Part shown: positions 33,001-44,658 of the stretch, piece by piece
Layout: every line of letters starts with the position of its first letter
Numbering within the stretch: the first letter of the stretch is position 1
Virus record (IMG/VR): IMGVR_UViG_3300047551_001028
Span: 1-62,600 of that record
From: a virus
Length of the DNA stretch: 62,600 nt
Strand: one strand, 5' to 3'
Position numbers and translations under genes: made by a program
The notes under the pieces: generated by a model
The model's input: the letters and a program-made list of their open reading frames with translations, nothing else
Told to the model about the DNA's origin: nothing
The model's database searches: none

Positions 33001-33002
33001 AG

Positions 33003-33073
33003 AGCGGATAGCGGGAATCGAACCCACACATTAATCTTGGCAAGATTACGCACTACCACTATGCAATATCCGC
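33003..33073 (-). tRNA. tRNA-Gly (anticodon GCC)
   Basis: Acceptor GCGGATA/TATCCGC, D arm with GTGGTAGT, anticodon stem TAATC/GATTA with loop TTGCCAA (anticodon GCC, + strand 33039-33041), T arm GTGGG-TTCGATT-CCCGC. No encoded CCA. It reads GGC and GGU. The phage's poly-Gly tail proteins at 56.7-62.6 kb would benefit. Confidence 0.95.
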
Positions 33074-37128: not shown

Positions 37129-37155
37129 TGAGCAGTTTTTCTCATACTCAGGAGA
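37129..37155 (-). ncRNA. H-type pseudoknot, copy A
   Basis: Minus strand: P1 UCUC/GAGA encloses the loop CUGAGUAU; the linker AAAAC is followed by UGCUCA, which pairs with the loop (GAGUA, one G-U). It lies just upstream of the gene at 36955-37101. Confidence 0.65.
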
Positions 37156-37587
37156 CTGCACTCATTTTTGTGTGGATAGGGTAGAGGCAAATGTATCAGA
37201 TCCCTACTTTGTGGTTGTGGTAGATGATGGTTTAACCCATCACCTATGTAATAGTATATCATAAAAAATGTTACTGATAAAAAAATGTTATACCAATGGT
37301 GGAGGAAAGTGGAGGAAAGTGGGGAATGGAGCGCTTTTTTTGAGGGGATCGTAATACCAAACCAAATATCCCAAACCCTGATATCCACGATATGGGGGCA
37401 TATGATACACCAGATATAATGGTTTGTCAAGTCCTAAATACCGCCCCAAAAATGTGTAAAAATGTAACAAAACTATAACAAAAAGTTATAAAACATTTAA
37501 ATAACAAACCAAAATATCTAGAAAAGTTAGAAAATGTTTTGTTTCTATATATGGGGGAATTAAGGATAGAGATCGTAATCTTTTTTA

Positions 37588-37624
37588 TACCCGCCCCTGC
37601 GGGGCCGCCGCCTGCGGCGGGGTA
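37588..37624. repeat. GC-rich three-way cruciform
   Basis: Outer TACCC/GGGTA encloses two hairpins, GCCCC-TGC-GGGGC and CGCCGC-CT-GCGGCG. It directly precedes the -35 box at 37626. It is strikingly GC-rich in an AT-rich genome. Confidence 0.7.
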
Positions 37625-37625
37625 T

Positions 37626-37654
37626 TTGACAAGGATCGTAATGTCTAGTATACT
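37626..37654 (+). promoter_or_regulatory. Consensus promoter with no gene
   Basis: TTGACA (37626-37631), a 17-bp spacer and TATACT (37649-37654); the predicted +1 is 37661. No open frame follows; a structured RNA does. Confidence 0.8.
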
Positions 37655-37660
37655 TATAGT

Positions 37661-37734
37661 ATTGAATCTGGCCTTGCAGTCATTGATTCAATATTTGGGA
37701 TCTGGTTACCTTTCTGGCCAGGTCCCAATTTTTA
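37661..37734 (+). ncRNA. Small RNA candidate with terminator
   Basis: From +1, ATTGAATC pairs with GATTCAAT (37685-37692). A second hairpin TTGGGATCTGG/CCAGGTCCCAA (37695-37705/37718-37728, one G-U) is followed by T5, an intrinsic terminator. The RNA would be about 74 nt. No coding frame spans it. Confidence 0.7.
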
Positions 37735-37749
37735 TGGTTTGATATGGCC

Positions 37750-37866
37750 TAAACTTTCAGCGGGGGCTACGGTTTGATCGTTCGTAATGTCTTTTTCAAA
37801 AAAGGCGCCAAACATTCAGCGGGGGGGACTTTGCGAGGGATCGTAATGTCTTTTTCAAAAATGGGC
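37750..37866. repeat. Imperfect direct repeats with GATCGTAAT
   Basis: Two units of about 55 bp share TTCAGCGGGGG, GATCG..CGTAATG and CTTTTTCAAAAA. GATCGTAAT or close variants also occur at 37347, 37571, 37634, 37882 and 37948. Confidence 0.7.
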
Positions 37867-38016
37867 GGGGATTTAAAGAGAGATCATAATACCTATAACC
37901 CTAGTATAAGAGATACAAGGTTTGAGGTTTGGGGATATAAGGTTTGGGATCGTAATGGTTTTTTAAGGTTTGGGATGTCCATATTGTCTGGTTTGATATG
38001 ATATTACCCGGGGGGC

Positions 38017-38280
38017 CTACTTGCCAGATTTTAAGAAAATTTCTCCTAGGTTTTCAAACCCTTCATCTGTGATACCCATAGCAAGCAAGAACATTTCCCA
38101 AGATTCTGCTACATATTTTTTACCATCTTCAGAAATATCACACAAGCCTTCACTTGCTAAATAAGACAATGGCAAACCAATATCATTGAACTCTAGAAAA
38201 TCTTTTAAATCACTATCCTCACGATAGTTAATATAGAACTCACCTAAGATATTTACTTGATTAGAAAAGTCTGTCGTCAT
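38017..38280 (-). CDS. Hypothetical acidic protein
   Basis: This 87-aa acidic helical protein ends 1 nt from a CCCGGGGGGCC palindrome and overlaps the next gene by 20 bp. No family was recognised. Confidence 0.65.
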   Translation of the reverse strand: MTTDFSNQVNILGEFYINYREDSDLKDFLEFNDIGLPLSYLASEGLCDISEDGKKYVAESWEMFLLAMGITDEGFENLGEIFLKSGK

Positions 38281-38497
38281 AGTGTCCTCCCTGTTGGTAG
38301 TATTCTCTTACTTCTTTATTATACCTTGCCGATTCTAAAATCTCAAGTGCTCTTGAATAAGGCACATAGGGAATAGCGGTTGCCAAGTAATAGCCAACTG
38401 CCTCTAAATCTAAAGAAAAATCAGACACGAGTGTAGAAATCTTTTGAGCAACCTTCTCCTCTTTGGTAGGGGTATCATTGCGCTTGATTCTATACAT
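38261..38497 (-). CDS. Hypothetical protein
   Basis: This 78-aa protein starts at ATG 38497 with SD GGGAGG. Its mostly helical sequence includes AVGYYLATAIPYVPYSRALEILE. It is coupled to the next gene. Confidence 0.65.
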   Translation of the reverse strand: MYRIKRNDTPTKEEKVAQKISTLVSDFSLDLEAVGYYLATAIPYVPYSRALEILESARYNKEVREYYQQGGHYDDRLF

Positions 38498-38507
38498 AGT
38501 TCCTCCC

Positions 38508-38516
38508 ATTGTATCA
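38508..38516 (-). promoter_or_regulatory. Extended -10 promoter (minus)
   Basis: TGaTACAAT (-10 at 38508-38513) lies just before SD GGGAGG and ATG 38497. Confidence 0.6.
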
Positions 38517-38527
38517 AATAAGTAGGG

Positions 38528-38554
38528 AGAGCGCAAGCCCCACACCTGCGCTCT
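38528..38554 (-). terminator. Stem-loop
   Basis: AGAGCGCA pairs with TGCGCTCT around an 11-nt loop upstream of the promoter at 38508-38516. It probably ends the transcript from 38974. Confidence 0.5.
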
Positions 38555-38620
38555 ACCCTTATATCACGTGAGGGACCCCACCCCACGCATTCAGCCTAGG
38601 TCACCACTCCAGGCTCTCAG

Positions 38621-38974
38621 TTAAACCTTTAAACTTAAATGATAATTAATAAAACTATCAAACTCATGAATGCCCGTTTCATCTTCTACAGTCTTATTAA
38701 TTAAATCAATAGTGATATCTGGATGGTCTCCACCATAGTCCATACCGTCGCCATTACTGGCCCATAGACCAAAGCCTGTCTCCTCTGTCCAGTCGGTACC
38801 AATCAACTGAGAGACAATGATACGGGTTGCATAGGATGTGTCATTCCACCTTGGCATTGCAGCATGTAGTGCATTTGCAAGGTTAACAAATCTATCATAA
38901 CCACCCCAATGACTGTATAAATTTACAGACAAGTCTTTATCTTGTTTGATTGTGTAGACGATTCTATCTCCCAC
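38621..38974 (-). CDS. Hypothetical protein with GTG start
   Basis: This 117-aa protein starts at GTG 38974, overlapping the stop of the DUF4241-like gene. Trp/Asp-rich patterns (GTDWTEETGFGLWASNGDG) suggest a beta-rich domain. Function unknown. Confidence 0.7.
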   Translation of the reverse strand: MGDRIVYTIKQDKDLSVNLYSHWGGYDRFVNLANALHAAMPRWNDTSYATRIIVSQLIGTDWTEETGFGLWASNGDGMDYGGDHPDITIDLINKTVEDETGIHEFDSFINYHLSLKV

Positions 38975-39291
38975 TATTCATCATCTCCTACAAATTCGAT
39001 AACAACTCTAGCAACTCGTCCGTCCTCATTCATTTCAGCATAAACTGGATAGAGTCCGTCTCCATAGCCAGTAGAAAATACTACAGCGGTAGATATTCCT
39101 AACTCACCATAGTTATTTGATAGTGTAGTAGCGCAGGCACCATGATAAGAATATTGGCCTTCCTTACCGTCAATATTAAACTCGTCATTTTTGTTGGTAT
39201 CCCATTCATCAAGATAGCAAGGGTCGCCTACCATGGCTTGCCCACTATCTACAGAGAAGTGCCCTATTAGGGTTAAGTCTTTAGTTTTCAT
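38974..39291 (-). CDS. DUF4241-like protein
   Basis: This 105-aa protein has FSVDSGQAMVGDPCYLDEW and VVFSTGYGDGLYPVYAEMNEDGRV, which match DUF4241 (pattern VDAG-x-DPCYL, then TGxGDGxY). The molecular role is unknown. Confidence 0.7.
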   Translation of the reverse strand: MKTKDLTLIGHFSVDSGQAMVGDPCYLDEWDTNKNDEFNIDGKEGQYSYHGACATTLSNNYGELGISTAVVFSTGYGDGLYPVYAEMNEDGRVARVVIEFVGDDE

Positions 39292-39421
39292 TTCTTTCCT
39301 TTCTGTTGGTGTTTATGTCAATTCTATCAAAATCCAACGGTAATGTCAATTGCTCGTAGATCATTGATAAACCTAGCTGTTCTTTTGCCTTTAATACATC
39401 TAATGATTCTATTATTATCAT
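39281..39421 (-). CDS. Small protein overlapping a promoter
   Basis: This 46-aa protein, MIIIESLDVLKAKEQL..., starts in an ATGA overlap with the 89-aa gene. Its 3' half encodes the -35/-10 and SD of the next gene. Coding is supported by coupling only. Confidence 0.45.
   Translation of the reverse strand: MIIIESLDVLKAKEQLGLSMIYEQLTLPLDFDRIDINTNRKERNEN
39321..39349 (-). promoter_or_regulatory. Promoter (minus)
   Basis: TTGACA (39344-39349), a 17-bp spacer and TGaTAGAAT (-10 at 39321-39326); SD AGAAAGGA precedes ATG 39291. Confidence 0.8.
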
Positions 39422-39687
39422 GTACCGTCCCTTTCTGCGATAGCAAATGATAGTGCATATGTTAATGCATATAGGTTCCCCAAGGCGTCACACTGACCCT
39501 CCCAGTACTTACGCTCCATGCTGTCCATGGCTTCTTCTGATTCATCCTCAGCCTCTTGTGCCTGAAGCAGCTCATTCTCTGCCTCCAGCATTAGAACTTT
39601 GAGGTACCCATGAATAATATCTAAACCATTACTACCAGCTTCTACCTGTTTCTGCAGGCGAGGTTCTAGTTCCATTGTGTACATCAT
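39418..39687 (-). CDS. Coiled-coil hypothetical protein
   Basis: This 89-aa protein starts at 39687 (ATGA overlap, SD GGAGG). A highly acidic heptad region (LEAENELLQAQEAEDESEEAM) implies a coiled coil. Function unknown. Confidence 0.65.
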   Translation of the reverse strand: MMYTMELEPRLQKQVEAGSNGLDIIHGYLKVLMLEAENELLQAQEAEDESEEAMDSMERKYWEGQCDALGNLYALTYALSFAIAERDGT

Positions 39688-39905
39688 CCCAGTATATCCT
39701 CCACCACTGACAAAATGTGGCGGGCAGAAAGTAATTGCCCGCTCCAATGATTATATTCAAAATCTAATTCATTATAAGCCTTAGAAGCAGGGTCAAGTTC
39801 TTCCATTTGAGAAGCAATTCCCTCCAAGTCCTGTTCTAAACTAATTACATGAAGCTTTATATATTCCTTCAGTTGACCAGTTCTACGAATGTATTCTGAT
39901 TCCAT
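39684..39905 (-). CDS. Coiled-coil hypothetical protein
   Basis: This 73-aa helical protein (LEQDLEGIASQMEELDPASKAYNEL) is coupled to its neighbour. Function unknown. Confidence 0.65.
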   Translation of the reverse strand: MESEYIRRTGQLKEYIKLHVISLEQDLEGIASQMEELDPASKAYNELDFEYNHWSGQLLSARHILSVVEDILG

Positions 39906-39924
39906 TAGATTCTACCCTCTTCCA

Positions 39925-40152
39925 TTATTCCACCTCAATATAGTATTGTTCATCAGGATTCATATTGTAGAATTTATTAAATGCCTGTTTAATTTCTTTA
40001 GAATCAGACATAGAAGCAAACTGATAATCCGCATACAATATACCCTCATCTAAATTAGAATTCATCCATTCAGTAAATAGATGTTCTGATATTGCTTGTA
40101 TCTCATAGTCAATAACCATTTGGTTAATGTTGGCTTCCTCTAGGAAACTCAT
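39925..40152 (-). CDS. Small acidic protein
   Basis: This 75-aa acidic helical protein (MSFLEEANINQMVIDYEIQAI) overlaps the gene upstream by 4 bp. Function unknown. Confidence 0.65.
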   Translation of the reverse strand: MSFLEEANINQMVIDYEIQAISEHLFTEWMNSNLDEGILYADYQFASMSDSKEIKQAFNKFYNMNPDEQYYIEVE

Positions 40153-40898
40153 TTGATTTGGTCCCTTCTGTATTCTGGTAGATATTCCTCAGTTAAGTAT
40201 ACTTTATGAGTATCACATTCTGCAACTGCCTCTAGGTCTGCCTCGCCTAGCCAGTGACACGATTCACATATCTGACCACATTCACTCTCACAATAATCTA
40301 ATGTGTTGGTTGATTCACAATCTCTGCACATATTTTCATATCCAGAATCAGAAATCATTTCACCACGCAAGAACTCACACTCACCACCCCAACCTGTCTC
40401 TTCCTCATAAGATAAGGTAAATAATAATGTTGGATACTGACTAGATAGTTTAGCAATGGCAGGATGTGGCGGAGACCAAGCGGTATTGAAATTATAATGA
40501 ACCACTAGATTATCTCCATTAGGAACAGGTCCCTCTGTATTTGTTTCAGGATACTCATCATCAGATGATACTGCTACATCCCATTTAGTTCCCCAATTAC
40601 GGACATTCCATGAATACCAATCATTTGTTTTAAATTGCATTGCTTCCGCTATTGGTAATTTATGGTCGGGTTGTGCAAGATATTCATAATCACTAACACC
40701 ATCCTCAATATAGTTATAGATATTATAGAATGCAAATACAGGGTTTGGATAAGTAGTTAATTTCTTTTCCATTTGTCCTGATTCTATATTCCATGAATCA
40801 TTAACTTGTTTGAATGGCTTATTAAGTTGTGCTACAAGGTCATTAACCTCTGACGGATTACCTTCTATTGTTAGTCCGTTAAATACCCAATTAGGCAT
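40149..40898 (-). CDS. Api92/DUF1281-like protein
   Basis: This 249-aa protein begins MPNWVFNGLTIEGNP and contains WNVRNWGTKWDVAV and FNTAWSPPHPAI. This is the pattern of the Api92/DUF1281 family (ferredoxin-like fold) seen in phages and plasmids. A Cys-rich C-terminal part (CRDCEST, CESECGQICESC) may bind zinc. Start at 40898 after AGAAAGGA. Confidence 0.75.
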   Translation of the reverse strand: MPNWVFNGLTIEGNPSEVNDLVAQLNKPFKQVNDSWNIESGQMEKKLTTYPNPVFAFYNIYNYIEDGVSDYEYLAQPDHKLPIAEAMQFKTNDWYSWNVRNWGTKWDVAVSSDDEYPETNTEGPVPNGDNLVVHYNFNTAWSPPHPAIAKLSSQYPTLLFTLSYEEETGWGGECEFLRGEMISDSGYENMCRDCESTNTLDYCESECGQICESCHWLGEADLEAVAECDTHKVYLTEEYLPEYRRDQIK

Positions 40899-40926
40899 GG
40901 GGGTCCTTTCTGTTTGTCGTAATACA

Positions 40927-40955
40927 ATTATCCCAAAATCAGGGAATTCTGTCAA
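40927..40955 (-). promoter_or_regulatory. Promoter (minus)
   Basis: TTGACA (40950-40955), a 17-bp spacer and GATAAT (40927-40932), then SD AGAAAGGA before ATG 40898. Confidence 0.75.
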
Positions 40956-40965
40956 TCTGTCGTAA

Positions 40966-40981
40966 AGTGATTTTGGTCACA
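40966..40981. promoter_or_regulatory. Near-consensus TGTGA-N6-TCACA palindrome (aGTGA)
   Basis: AGTGATTTTGGTCACA, one mismatch from the palindrome, spans the stop codon of the gene at 40977. Confidence 0.45.
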
Positions 40982-41156
40982 CCTTTCCCTCTACCCTCGT
41001 GGATTGGCATTCCATGCACTTAGGATCTATAGGATCATAGTACTCTTTATAGCCAACATCCTCCAACTCACCTGCGGCAGTATATGTGGCCTCGTTATAG
41101 GAATTCTCCATGAATGAGAACTTAGTTACATTATTACAATCTAAACACTTAGGCAT
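40977..41156 (-). CDS. Zinc-ribbon protein
   Basis: This 59-aa protein has CLDC and CMEC, a tetracysteine zinc ribbon, and an acidic middle. Function unknown. Confidence 0.65.
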   Translation of the reverse strand: MPKCLDCNNVTKFSFMENSYNEATYTAAGELEDVGYKEYYDPIDPKCMECQSTRVEGKV

Positions 41157-41304
41157 CTGCACCCATCTCCCATGGCTCTACTTTATAGTTTGCACATATT
41201 TGCTCAATGCAATCTTCAAGTTCGGTAAAGAATAGGCCACCTTCATTGTCGTCAAAATGACTAATCATGTTGTCAGTTATCTTGAATTCCCATACTATTT
41301 TCAT
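41149..41304 (-). CDS. Small protein
   Basis: This 51-aa protein begins MKIVWEFKITDNMISHF; it is coupled to the gene upstream (ATGA) and downstream. Function unknown. Confidence 0.6.
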   Translation of the reverse strand: MKIVWEFKITDNMISHFDDNEGGLFFTELEDCIEQICANYKVEPWEMGADA

Positions 41305-41459
41305 TGGACATGTCCTTCCGCTAATATACCGTCCAAAAAATCCCAAGTCTTCTGTAGATTTATTCTAGTATCATCGTGATTTGAAGGCGGTAGATAAAAC
41401 ACTGCCTCTTCAATAGCATATTGCATATCTAATACATCAGTCTCTTTATAACCTAACAT
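41301..41459 (-). CDS. Small acidic protein
   Basis: This 52-aa protein, MLGYKETDVLDMQYAIEEAV..., has SD AGAAAGGG and a promoter. Function unknown. Confidence 0.6.
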   Translation of the reverse strand: MLGYKETDVLDMQYAIEEAVFYLPPSNHDDTRINLQKTWDFLDGILAEGHVQ

Positions 41460-41483
41460 AATTACCCTTTCTGTGGTAATCCA

Positions 41484-41512
41484 ATAATAGCAAGAAACTG
41501 GGAAAAAATCAA
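41484..41512 (-). promoter_or_regulatory. Promoter (minus)
   Basis: TTGATT (41507-41512), a 17-bp spacer and TGcTATTAT (-10 at 41484-41489). Confidence 0.7.
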
Positions 41513-41593
41513 GTCTTACGTAATAAAGTTTTGTAAAAATAAAGGGACAAAACGGACACCCCGGGGCATTTTTAAGATCAATGCAAAAAAAAT

Positions 41594-41621
41594 TGAGCAG
41601 TTTATACTCTTACTCAGGAGT
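41594..41621 (-). ncRNA. H-type pseudoknot, copy B, with U8
   Basis: Minus strand: P1 ACUC/GAGU; loop CUGAGUAA; linker AUAAAC; UGCUCA pairs with the loop; AAUUUUUUUU follows. Lies 9 nt after the stop of the DUF932-like gene, so it probably ends that transcript. Confidence 0.75.
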
Positions 41622-41630
41622 TGCAATTAC

Positions 41631-42641
41631 TTACGCAATTGCTAAAGTATTTTTTACAATACTTAGCAGACGATTTTTTTCTGCTGTAATTGTAGCGTCA
41701 AAACCAGAAGCAGCAGCAAGTAGTGATTCGTTAGAATTACCACGAGCAGACCTGTGCCAATCTAATCTTTCAGTGAGAGCGTTAAGCGCACCCCAAGCAG
41801 TATTGGCTATCGTGCCATTAAACTCGCCTGTGTAAATATCATTGATTAAATCAATTTTATTTTCCCACTTTTTTGATGAGCCTTTAGAATCTTTCTCAGG
41901 CTTAGGATAAGCAGCAAGGACAATATCATTGAACTGTTGCGCTGTTATTTCTTTTTCAATCATAGCCTTAGCCATAACATCAAAAGAATCCATATAAGCA
42001 TTAGCAAGACCAAGAGCCTCACGAGCAATTTGGACTTTGCCATTAGCTGTCTGTGTATGGCGAATCTTGAAAGATTGCTTGATTTTGTTTTTCTTAGAAC
42101 CAAGCGCAAGATTAAGAGTGTTAGCGCATACAACACGAACGGGTGTTATTGACGCTTGAATAGCAATAGAGCCATCGTGGCTTGTGTTGATAAGTAAATA
42201 GGTTTTTACTTTATCCGCAACACCATTAGGGTCTAATACTGTTTCACGCTCAAGAGCAAGAGAGCCAAATACTACACGCCCTCCACGAATAGAGCCAGCG
42301 GTTTCCCATCTGCCTCCACCATCTAGGATATTATCACCAAATGAAAATAAATCTTCATTCTGTAAAACGTGATAACGCTCACCTACAACACCAAGAATAT
42401 CTGTCTGAGTGTTATCAGTAGGGTTAGTTCTTACAACATAAGAATAACTCTTGTCTGAGGTAAGAGTATTTGGAATCTCAACATCAACTAATCTAACATT
42501 CCAATTATTTAGATTAGCAGCAGCAAGCATTTCGCTTGTTGTTTTTTCATCTGTGAAAACTGTGCCTAAGCCGTGCCAAGCAGGTTCTCTAAATGAGGCA
42601 AAAGAAGCAACGCCATTTTGCGTTTCTAATTCGTGAGCCAT
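41631..42641 (-). CDS. DUF932 / phage-plasmid-like protein (TIGR03299 type)
   Basis: This 336-aa protein has PAWHGLGTVF at the N-terminus, ILGVVGERYHVLQNEDLFSFGD, VKTYLLINTSHDGSIAIQASITPVRVVCANTLNLA and the helical C-terminus of this family. The family is common in actinophages and plasmids and its role is unknown. It is transcribed from a consensus promoter and followed by pseudoknot copy B. Confidence 0.9.
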   Translation of the reverse strand: MAHELETQNGVASFASFREPAWHGLGTVFTDEKTTSEMLAAANLNNWNVRLVDVEIPNTLTSDKSYSYVVRTNPTDNTQTDILGVVGERYHVLQNEDLFSFGDNILDGGGRWETAGSIRGGRVVFGSLALERETVLDPNGVADKVKTYLLINTSHDGSIAIQASITPVRVVCANTLNLALGSKKNKIKQSFKIRHTQTANGKVQIAREALGLANAYMDSFDVMAKAMIEKEITAQQFNDIVLAAYPKPEKDSKGSSKKWENKIDLINDIYTGEFNGTIANTAWGALNALTERLDWHRSARGNSNESLLAAASGFDATITAEKNRLLSIVKNTLAIA

Positions 42642-42669
42642 TTTTATTTCCTTTCTATTTGTTTAGACA

Positions 42670-42698
42670 ATCATATCAGGAAGGTCTGACAATGTCAA
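42670..42698 (-). promoter_or_regulatory. Promoter (minus)
   Basis: TTGACA (42693-42698), a 17-bp spacer containing TGTCAG and TGaTATGAT (-10 at 42670-42675). Confidence 0.8.
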
Positions 42699-42779
42699 TT
42701 TATACTGTTAAGAATCGGGGCAAAACGGACATCGCTCTTAAACTTGACAAAAAATCTTTTTGCCCCCCGGGATTTTGAA

Positions 42780-42807
42780 GAGCAGTTTAAAGACATGCTC
42801 AGGTCTT
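42780..42807 (-). ncRNA. H-type pseudoknot, copy C
   Basis: Minus strand: P1 AAGAC/GUCUU; loop CUGAGCAU; linker UAAAC; UGCUC pairs with GAGCA. It starts 14 nt after the stop of the gene at 42822 and is followed by CCCGGGGGGC. Confidence 0.7.
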
Positions 42808-42821
42808 GGATAGCCCCACTA

Positions 42822-43280
42822 TCACACTTTATAGATATTATCTATCTCAACATCTGCTTCTCCGTCATATGAATTTAGTTCAGCATAAACATTGATATCA
42901 ATATCACTAACATCAAAATTAGCAACTTCATCTAACGGAACTAATATTGTTCCTGTAATTGTGGCGGTAGCCTCAAACTGAATTTCCTTAGTAGGGTTAA
43001 ATCCAAATATACTACAAATATCAGCAACGATTTCCTCTGAACCCATATCAAGGTAATCAGGTAAACGACTCTCTAACATATTTACATGCTGAGTATATCT
43101 ATTAAGTTCTCGTCTTTCTCTGCGGTGTTGATGTAATTCCCATTCAAGGTCGCTAACCTTTACTGTGGGATACCAGTTTGCAATATCTGATTCGTGCGCT
43201 TCAGAATCAATAACCTTATAGGTCACGATTTGATTTGGGTTGTAGTGATTTGGCACTACTGTTTCATTAGTTGTTTCCAT
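42822..43280 (-). CDS. Hypothetical protein
   Basis: This 152-aa protein has a helical middle (SDLEWELHQHRRERRELNRY) and a beta C-terminus rich in Asp/Glu. No family was recognised. It is coupled to the gene upstream and followed by pseudoknot C. Confidence 0.7.
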   Translation of the reverse strand: METTNETVVPNHYNPNQIVTYKVIDSEAHESDIANWYPTVKVSDLEWELHQHRRERRELNRYTQHVNMLESRLPDYLDMGSEEIVADICSIFGFNPTKEIQFEATATITGTILVPLDEVANFDVSDIDINVYAELNSYDGEADVEIDNIYKV

Positions 43281-43543
43281 TAGTTTAATTCCTCTCCTAG
43301 TTTATCAAACTCTTTAATTGCTTCCAGCATATCGTTTAATTCATTTTCTGTCAATATAGCGTGTGTAACTAAAGTAGTTGTCATAGCAGATAAACAGGCT
43401 GAGTATTTATAGATTTCAAGAGCAAACTCGTTGTCGCTTAGGTCATTTCTCATATGGCAAAGTTGTCCTGCCAAGTTCATTATTTGTTCATCATAAATTG
43501 CGTCTTTTGACGCTTCCTGTATTTTAAGCATTGTGCTTATCAT
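43280..43543 (-). CDS. Hypothetical helical protein
   Basis: This 87-aa helical protein with SD GGAAAG begins MISTMLKIQEASKDAI. It overlaps the next gene by 1 bp. Function unknown. Confidence 0.65.
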   Translation of the reverse strand: MISTMLKIQEASKDAIYDEQIMNLAGQLCHMRNDLSDNEFALEIYKYSACLSAMTTTLVTHAILTENELNDMLEAIKEFDKLGEELN

Positions 43544-43575
43544 TAGGGGCTTTCCTTTCGTTTGGTTATTCTATA

Positions 43576-43604
43576 AGTTTATCAAAAATATGGGAAAAAT
43601 ACAA
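43576..43604 (-). promoter_or_regulatory. Promoter (minus)
   Basis: TTGTAT (43599-43604), a 17-bp spacer and TGaTAAACT (-10 at 43576-43581). Confidence 0.65.
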
Positions 43605-43624
43605 ATCGTGTCTTAAATCAGCTA

Positions 43625-43640
43625 TGTGATCATTATCACA
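43625..43640. promoter_or_regulatory. TGTGA-N6-TCACA palindrome
   Basis: TGTGATCATTATCACA lies between pseudoknot D and the promoter at 43576-43604, as an upstream CRP/GlxR-type operator would. Confidence 0.6.
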
Positions 43641-43662
43641 TTTCCCGGGGGCGCAAAAAAAA

Positions 43663-43691
43663 TGAGCAGTTTTAGTTCATACTCAGGAACT
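43663..43691 (-). ncRNA. H-type pseudoknot, copy D, with U8
   Basis: Minus strand: P1 AGUUC/GAACU; loop CUGAGUAU; linker AAAAC; UGCUCA pairs with the loop; UUUUUUUU follows. It lies 34 nt after the stop of the 55-aa gene. Confidence 0.75.
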
Positions 43692-43725
43692 GTATGCCTC
43701 GCTATAGCACTGGCAGGGACATCTA

Positions 43726-43893
43726 TTAGTGTGTTTTTACCATAGCAAATCTTGTTTGATTATTTGCTAAGCGCAACATTACTTTAGTAACATTATGAGT
43801 TTGTGGGACAAACTTTTCAATGCGACCTGTAATACCTGTTTTGCTTGTTGTAAATAAATCACCAAGTTGGTAAGTGTATCCTCCAAGTGTCAT
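43726..43893 (-). CDS. SH3-like small protein, paralogue 2
   Basis: This 55-aa beta protein, YQLGDLFTTSKTGITGRIEKFVPQT, has the same pattern as the 54-aa gene at 44494, so the two are paralogues. A KOW/SH3-like fold is inferred; RNA or protein binding is possible. SD AGAAAGGA. Confidence 0.65.
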   Translation of the reverse strand: MTLGGYTYQLGDLFTTSKTGITGRIEKFVPQTHNVTKVMLRLANNQTRFAMVKTH

Positions 43894-43923
43894 TTACTTT
43901 TCCTTTCTGTTAGGGTTTTTTGT

Positions 43924-43953
43924 TGAGCAGTTTTAGTTGTCATACTCAGGACA
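43924..43953 (-). ncRNA. H-type pseudoknot, copy E
   Basis: Minus strand: P1 UGUC/GACA; loop CUGAGUAU; linker ACUAAAAC; UGCUCA pairs with the loop. It starts 15 nt after the stop of the 139-aa gene and 30 nt before the next ATG, with no promoter between. Confidence 0.7.
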
Positions 43954-43968
43954 TTTAGCGTATGCTAA

Positions 43969-44388
43969 TTATAGATAACGAGCGATAGCATTATAGGTGC
44001 TAGTGCTAACTACTTCCTCATCTGTCATTTTGAGAATACGAATTGCGTTCTCAATTTCATCTACCATTTCCTTGTATTGCCACTCATTGTAAGTGTCAAA
44101 ATCTTTCTTAGGTTCATCAGGTAGCGTGATACTTCCAGCAGGTAAGTTGAAATCAACATTTATCTGTCCATTGTAGCGAACATTGGCATTTAAGTCTGTC
44201 GCCTTACTTATTTGAGAAAGTGCTAATTTTCCAACTTCCTTATTGTATTTCTCTAAAGCCTTTTGGAACTTTTCCTCATTGACTTTTTGATTAGCCTTAT
44301 CCTTTTGGATTTGGGCTAGTTTTGCTTCTAGTGCCTTGATAACTTTGGTTGTTGCTATCTTGACACTAATTGATTTTCCTCTTGACAT
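43969..44388 (-). CDS. Coiled-coil hypothetical protein
   Basis: This 139-aa protein has a basic N-terminus (MSRGKSISVKIATTKVIKALE), a Lys/Glu coiled coil (AKLAQIQKDKANQKVNEEKFQ) and a C-terminal helical segment. It lies between pseudoknots F and E, each in the same orientation. Confidence 0.7.
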   Translation of the reverse strand: MSRGKSISVKIATTKVIKALEAKLAQIQKDKANQKVNEEKFQKALEKYNKEVGKLALSQISKATDLNANVRYNGQINVDFNLPAGSITLPDEPKKDFDTYNEWQYKEMVDEIENAIRILKMTDEEVVSTSTYNAIARYL

Positions 44389-44414
44389 TATTTTCCTTTC
44401 TGTTTGGGGTATCT

Positions 44415-44443
44415 ATCCTAGCATTTTCTAGGTAAGAAATCAA
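44415..44443 (-). promoter_or_regulatory. Promoter (minus)
   Basis: TTGATT (44438-44443) begins 2 nt after pseudoknot F; 17-bp spacer; TGcTAGGAT (-10 at 44415-44420). Confidence 0.7.
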
Positions 44444-44445
44444 GT

Positions 44446-44475
44446 TGAGCAGTTTTAATAGACTTGCTCAGGTCT
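44446..44475 (-). ncRNA. H-type pseudoknot, copy F
   Basis: Minus strand: P1 AGAC/GUCU; loop CUGAGCAA; linker AUUAAAAC; UGCUCA pairs with the loop (all Watson-Crick). It starts 18 nt after the stop of the 54-aa gene and directly precedes the next promoter. Confidence 0.75.
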
Positions 44476-44493
44476 TTAGCCATTAGGCTAAGA

Positions 44494-44658
44494 TTACTTG
44501 TTTGTCCAAGTAGTCCAGCGAGTTGCGCCATTTACATCTAACTTAACTCTTACTGTGTTTTTTGTAGTTGGCACGATTTCCTTGATAATACCTGACACTT
44601 TTGATTTCTGTGTGGTATAGGTATCGCCTACTTTGTATAGTGCGTTTGCTACTGACAT
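44494..44658 (-). CDS. SH3-like small protein, paralogue 1
   Basis: This 54-aa beta protein, YKVGDTYTTQKSKVSGIIKEIVPTT, is a paralogue of the gene at 43726. It is translated after a consensus promoter with SD AAAGGAG. Confidence 0.65.
   Translation of the reverse strand: MSVANALYKVGDTYTTQKSKVSGIIKEIVPTTKNTVRVKLDVNGATRWTTWTNK

Follow-up and report, generated by a model that had tools for sequence, protein, structure and literature searches.

A small pseudoknot behind stop codons in phages and other mobile elements, possibly an RNA boundary that closes messages

Six related elements in the window (the whole 62,600-nt stretch analysed here, positions 1 to 62,600 of IMG/VR record IMGVR_UViG_3300047551_001028) belong to what is apparently a very common small phage RNA, with very strong covariation and no Rfam family that covers it. 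On sequence comparison, it is nearly certain that the element, about 28 nt in size, has an H-type pseudoknot structure with two crossing helices. The consensus consists of the first P1 strand ending in C, then CU, nnnYA, W, the second P1 strand beginning with G, ..AAAC and UGn'n'n'. P1 has 3-6 bp with a fixed closing C-G pair. P2 has five pairs, GAGYA with UGCUC, and possibly a sixth via the A that usually follows; its outer three pairs covary and the inner Y-G and A-U are fixed. One nucleotide, A or U, lies between P2 and the 3' strand of P1 (L2). Of the single strands, CU and AAAC are fixed and the junction is mostly A/U, but the loci were retrieved by sequence pattern and the constancy of letters imposed by the pattern is no evidence. 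Judged from its position, the element may serve as a self-folding boundary and cap that shields the upstream message from 3' exonucleases, a function to which we give about even chances. More tentatively, it could be an unnamed, self-acting and host-independent RNA boundary element with which the phages and other mobile elements of a great many bacterial phyla close messages behind stop codons.

Scanning the window with CTGAGYA-N(4-14)-AACTGCTC gave exactly six matches, all on the minus strand, where shuffled sequences gave an expectation of 0.00. A covariance model trained on 83 sequences, all from outside the window, recovered the same six sites with E values of 2.6e-8 to 6.4e-5, and the seventh-ranked site had an E value of 1.3. 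These are the six minus-strand copies that an earlier note had proposed, and neither search added another. The model ends the copy at 43663 at 43690, and it shifts the copy that the note had placed at 42780-42807 to 42779-42806, the best-scoring site (E = 2.6e-8); the weakest of the six is 43924-43953 (E = 6.4e-5).

All on the minus strand, the elements are copy 1 at 44446..44475 (P1 AGAC/GUCU, P2 GAGCA/UGCUC; 27.3 bits), copy 2 at 43924..43953 (UGUC/GACA, GAGUA/UGCUC; 25.9 bits), copy 3 at 43663..43691 (AGUUC/GAACU, GAGUA/UGCUC, then AT8; 36.5 bits), copy 4 at 42779..42807 (AAGAC/GUCUU, GAGCA/UGCUC; 39.3 bits), copy 5 at 41594..41621 (ACUC/GAGU, GAGUA/UGCUC, then AAT8; 37 bits) and copy 6 at 37129..37155 (UCUC/GAGA, GAGUA/UGCUC; 26.4 bits). 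As the earlier note had described, P1 differs from copy to copy yet pairs in all six, and the variable loop letter is U or C, either of which stands opposite G. The copies are spaced 0.3-4.5 kb apart.

The stops upstream of copies 1 to 5 belong to minus-strand ORFs of 54 aa (44494..44658), 139 aa (43969..44388), 55 aa (43726..43893), 152 aa (42822..43280) and 336 aa (41631..42641), respectively, the last of which we take to be DUF932-like. No clear gene end lies just upstream of copy 6. The distance from stop to P1 is 9-34 nt for the window copies. A small extra hairpin (e.g. TAGCC-TAAT-GGCTA) stands between stop and P1 at 42808-42821, 43954-43967 and 44476-44493, and its stem differs from site to site. 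A promoter-like TTGACA-17-TATGAT at 42670..42698 (minus strand), located between copy 4 and the ORF of 336 aa, is a consensus match only. None of the six copies is directly followed by a tRNA; the tRNA-Gly (GCC) of the window (33002-33073, minus strand) begins 6 nt past an ORF end with no intervening pseudoknot.

Covariation in P1 was evaluated in viral contigs with the pattern CTGAGYA..AAACTGCTC, which fixes the loop and the 3' strand and leaves P1 free. At least 120 stretches were found, and P1 was paired in about nine tenths of the matches listed. Across 92 distinct ungapped viral sequences, 97.7% of P1 and P2 pair cells are paired (94.8% for P1 alone), compared with a mean of 80.5% in shuffled controls, none of which reached 97.7% in 500 trials. 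The third P1 pair occurs as all four Watson-Crick types (GC 31, AU 23, CG 21 and UA 17). The covariation score is 0.438 in the P1 register and at most about 0.10 when the register is slid. The closing C-G of P1 is nearly invariant although the pattern left it free.

Within the window, P2 varies only by U or C opposite G. The pairing of loop and 3' strand that the earlier note had proposed is supported by mutant scans of the whole collection and not by the six copies themselves. The double mutant GGGYA/UGCCC was found at a minimum of 120 viral loci, where P1 had 3 bp or more in 112 of the 114 matches listed, and the single mutant with an A.C mismatch was found at 11 viral loci. A second double mutant, AGGYA/UGCCU, also occurs at no fewer than 120 loci. 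Further P2 variants were met incidentally (GGACA/UGUCC, AAGCA/UGCUU, GGCCA/UGGCC and AAACA/UGUUU), with the CU and AAAC strands unchanged, and the reversed-sequence control gave 3 versus 400. Covariation at the innermost P2 pair was considered and rejected: its double mutant is present in only 7 viral loci, and from this rarity we infer that the inner P2 pairs are fixed by sequence. Alignment A6 had been filtered for paired sequences and lends neither helix independent support. The G-U pairs in P2, together with strict co-orientation, favour action as RNA over action as DNA.

Relatives of three window genes carry the element at the equivalent place, with helices altered yet still paired. Behind a 92% identical relative of the 152-aa gene (L262) the helices are GAUC/GAUU and GGGCA/UGCCC, compared with AGAC/GUCU and GAGCA/UGCUC in the window. 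Behind an 86% identical relative of the 336-aa gene (L467), P2 is AGGCA/UGCCU, compared with GAGUA/UGCUC. Both helices thus change together at orthologous sites while pairing is kept, which is the covariance support in homologues that the earlier note had named as a check. With the viral-contig matches, these sites strongly support its claim of a selected H-type pseudoknot family with covarying P1. The element is present in 50 of 63 members of the 336-aa gene cluster and, among fetched loci, in 18 of 27 members of the 139-aa ORF family. Streptomyces phages that have a relative of the 336-aa gene show a hairpin resembling a terminator, plus a T-run, where this phage has the pseudoknot, which suggests that both are alternatives for the end of a message.

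Across the collection, P1 mostly begins 5-7 nt past the stop of the co-oriented gene just upstream, whereas ordinary hairpins behind control genes show a broad spread of distances. The upstream genes fall into 154 unrelated protein families, which argues for a generic action. TGA stops are depleted about threefold (31/272 vs 1939/6374 controls, odds ratio 0.29, p = 4e-13), and the depletion persists after protein-family weighting. Gene calls for this and the other gene statistics were made by a simple longest-ORF procedure, which overlooks short genes and leaves some false ORFs among the controls. The next start codon is often 20-40 nt further downstream, and TTTT occurs within 12 nt after the element in 22% of cases versus 6% of controls. 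Reading on beyond the stop gives open frames no longer than those of control genes. Two other candidate signals were rejected. A raw enrichment of Ala and hydrophobic residues in the C-terminal peptide was largely lost after protein-family weighting, and 'convergent' contexts were mostly missed short genes and tRNAs.

The element is about tenfold enriched ahead of tRNA genes. A tRNA lies within 130 nt downstream of 35/327 element genes compared with 75/7430 others (odds ratio 11.8, p = 4e-22). Much of this signal comes from one protein family, but it is still significant after family weighting (odds ratio 5.1 at the protein-family level, p = 2e-4). About ten tRNA types are involved, and most gaps between P2 and the tRNA measure 3-5 nt. 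Element and tRNA are always on the same strand, with 34 elements before a tRNA and 6 after one. In L156 and L178 a DUF2800 RNA (RF02960) begins 1-2 nt past the element, and in L204 a GP20-b RNA (RF03003) begins 18 nt past it. The Rfam matches of these adjoining RNAs begin after the pseudoknot and exclude it.

There is no place for a terminator between a gene and a tRNA transcribed along with it, but there is for a structure that would cap the message once RNase P has cut. Each copy would be a self-contained H-type pseudoknot marking the end of a phage message. It would fold upon transcription and remain folded just outside the reach of the terminating ribosome. A downstream 3' end would be made by RNase P at a tRNA, by termination, or by an endonuclease between genes, leaving an overhang too short for 3'-to-5' exonucleases. 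The upstream message would then be capped and insulated from downstream RNA, and a cistron could end even where a tRNA, a structured RNA or a further gene immediately follows within one transcript. The 3-5 nt that would remain before a tRNA is less than the overhang of about 7 nt that RNase R requires (PMC12320835), which supports a cap. So do the covariation of both helices, the placement before tRNAs and DUF2800 RNA, the 154 upstream families, the hairpin and T-run at the equivalent place in Streptomyces phages, the T-runs after the element and the sharp spacing from the stop. The case is weakened on other grounds: this spacing is sharper than a cap requires, the threefold depletion of TGA is not predicted by a pure cap, RNase R unwinds structured RNA when given an overhang, and no window copy has a tRNA after it. 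If a cap is the true function, it would help to explain how single messages in dense phage operons are ended and protected across unrelated hosts, and would answer how message ends are set where a terminator cannot stand, e.g. before tRNA genes. At 28 nt, the element would in addition offer a compact means of making bacterial messages more stable.

Because of the sharp spacing and the depletion of TGA, a role directed at the ribosome has to be weighed as the main alternative, although we consider it unlikely. While the stop codon occupies the A site, the pseudoknot would abut the mRNA entry channel of the terminating ribosome and would hold or block it. Termination would then be clean, sliding and re-initiation would be prevented, and the following gene would be uncoupled in its translation. 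A distance of 5-7 nt is typical of pseudoknots that stimulate frameshifting or readthrough and is far more sharply set than that of ordinary hairpins, and the frequent start codon 20-40 nt on points the same way. However, placement 3-5 nt before tRNAs or abutting DUF2800 RNA is left unexplained, the window copies have the longer spacing given above, and no frame continues past the stop. The geometry offers a parallel, since luteovirus-type frameshift and retroviral readthrough pseudoknots have short helices, a 2-nt L1, a 1-nt junction and an A-rich L3 a few nucleotides behind the decoded codon. The element resembles them in geometry and spacing but has no extended frame. A stimulator of recoding by frameshift or readthrough was rejected, as stop-spanning frames are not longer than in controls.

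Two further explanations are each improbable in our assessment. Were the element a transcription terminator or attenuator with P2 as the terminator hairpin, the excess of T-runs, the T8 after two window copies and the terminator-like hairpins of the Streptomyces phage relatives would be accounted for, but a T-run is missing from most copies, and in many cases the gap to the next gene or tRNA is too small for a promoter. It was rejected as a general explanation on the mostly absent U-run and the co-directional genes or tRNAs that come next. Intrinsic terminators and REP-type 3' stabilisers share with the element a place at message ends and a proposed protection against exonucleases, but the element is a pseudoknot, usually has no U-run and tolerates a tRNA or gene after it on the same strand. 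A site at which a protein of phage or host, or a small RNA, binds to regulate the flanking genes would fit the fixed single-stranded CU, YA and AAAC letters and the several copies per phage. Against this, identical letters over many phyla would require a universal partner, and they are equally explicable as base triples of the pseudoknot. A type III toxin-antitoxin RNA was rejected, the copies being single and scattered and their downstream genes unrelated.

The earlier note had been reminded of the preQ1-I riboswitch, a small pseudoknot of the H type whose third loop is rich in A and runs along P1. The likeness holds for this general shape, which the element shares with preQ1-I (RF00522), but not further: the sequence differs, P2 has five pairs, the one-nucleotide L2 provides no loop for a ligand pocket, no Rfam riboswitch matches, and the copies stand after the stops of unrelated genes rather than in the 5' leaders of one pathway such as queuosine. 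A ligand-sensing riboswitch of this type is very improbable, and the earlier statement that the sequence matches no known riboswitch was right, as it does not look like any riboswitch. The Rfam search that the earlier note had listed returned no family for the six copies over the whole window at gathering level. At E values up to 10, in a stretch holding three copies, there was no match to them and one chance match elsewhere. STAXI (RF01728), from Enterobacteriales, has two or usually three successive copies of a pseudoknot in which UUCG loops are common (Weinberg 2010, PMC2864571). STAXI and the element are both simple pseudoknots of mobile elements near DNA-handling or antirestriction genes, but our element is mostly single, lacks a tetraloop and occurs in many phyla. 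The search with RF01728 gave no match to the element, and no STAXI example was found as a positive control. Tandem pairs within 110 nt number only 8 across all loci in a strict scan. No description of the element was found in the open-licence literature.

Among the matches listed, the element is widespread in viral contigs and in genome contigs from many bacterial phyla. Viral records hold 2-8 copies each, often clustered; Lactobacillus phage phiAQ113 has one copy, and the stretches examined of cyanophages S-BM1 and Syn9 have none. Most genomes tested have one to three copies and one has 15, mostly on a single contig. Genes downstream of the element in genome contigs (n = 67) include those for phage scaffold proteins (Phage_scaffold 7, DUF4355 5) and for ArdC, and from such neighbours we infer that most genomic copies sit in prophages or other mobile elements.

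Several local arrangements were also observed. A contig binned with a Bacteroidetes genome (L508) has 12 copies in about 6 kb, including three pairs 46 nt apart. A larger relative (L010:2713-2771; also in L008, L057, L072, L082, L105 and L115) has a conserved hairpin with a covarying stem abutting P1, and three nucleotides, not one, precede the 3' strand of P1. In L127, L129, L137, L143, L155, L172, L188 and L203, which come from Aminicenantes and a number of other phyla, an ORF terminating in ..HC.EGC.. runs into the pseudoknot, and its TGA stop usually falls within the CTGAG loop. In prophages of Lactobacillus and other Firmicutes (L502:1685-1712, L157, L165, L204 and L217) the element, with a T-run and TATGCC conserved behind it, lies upstream of the gene for the phage scaffold.
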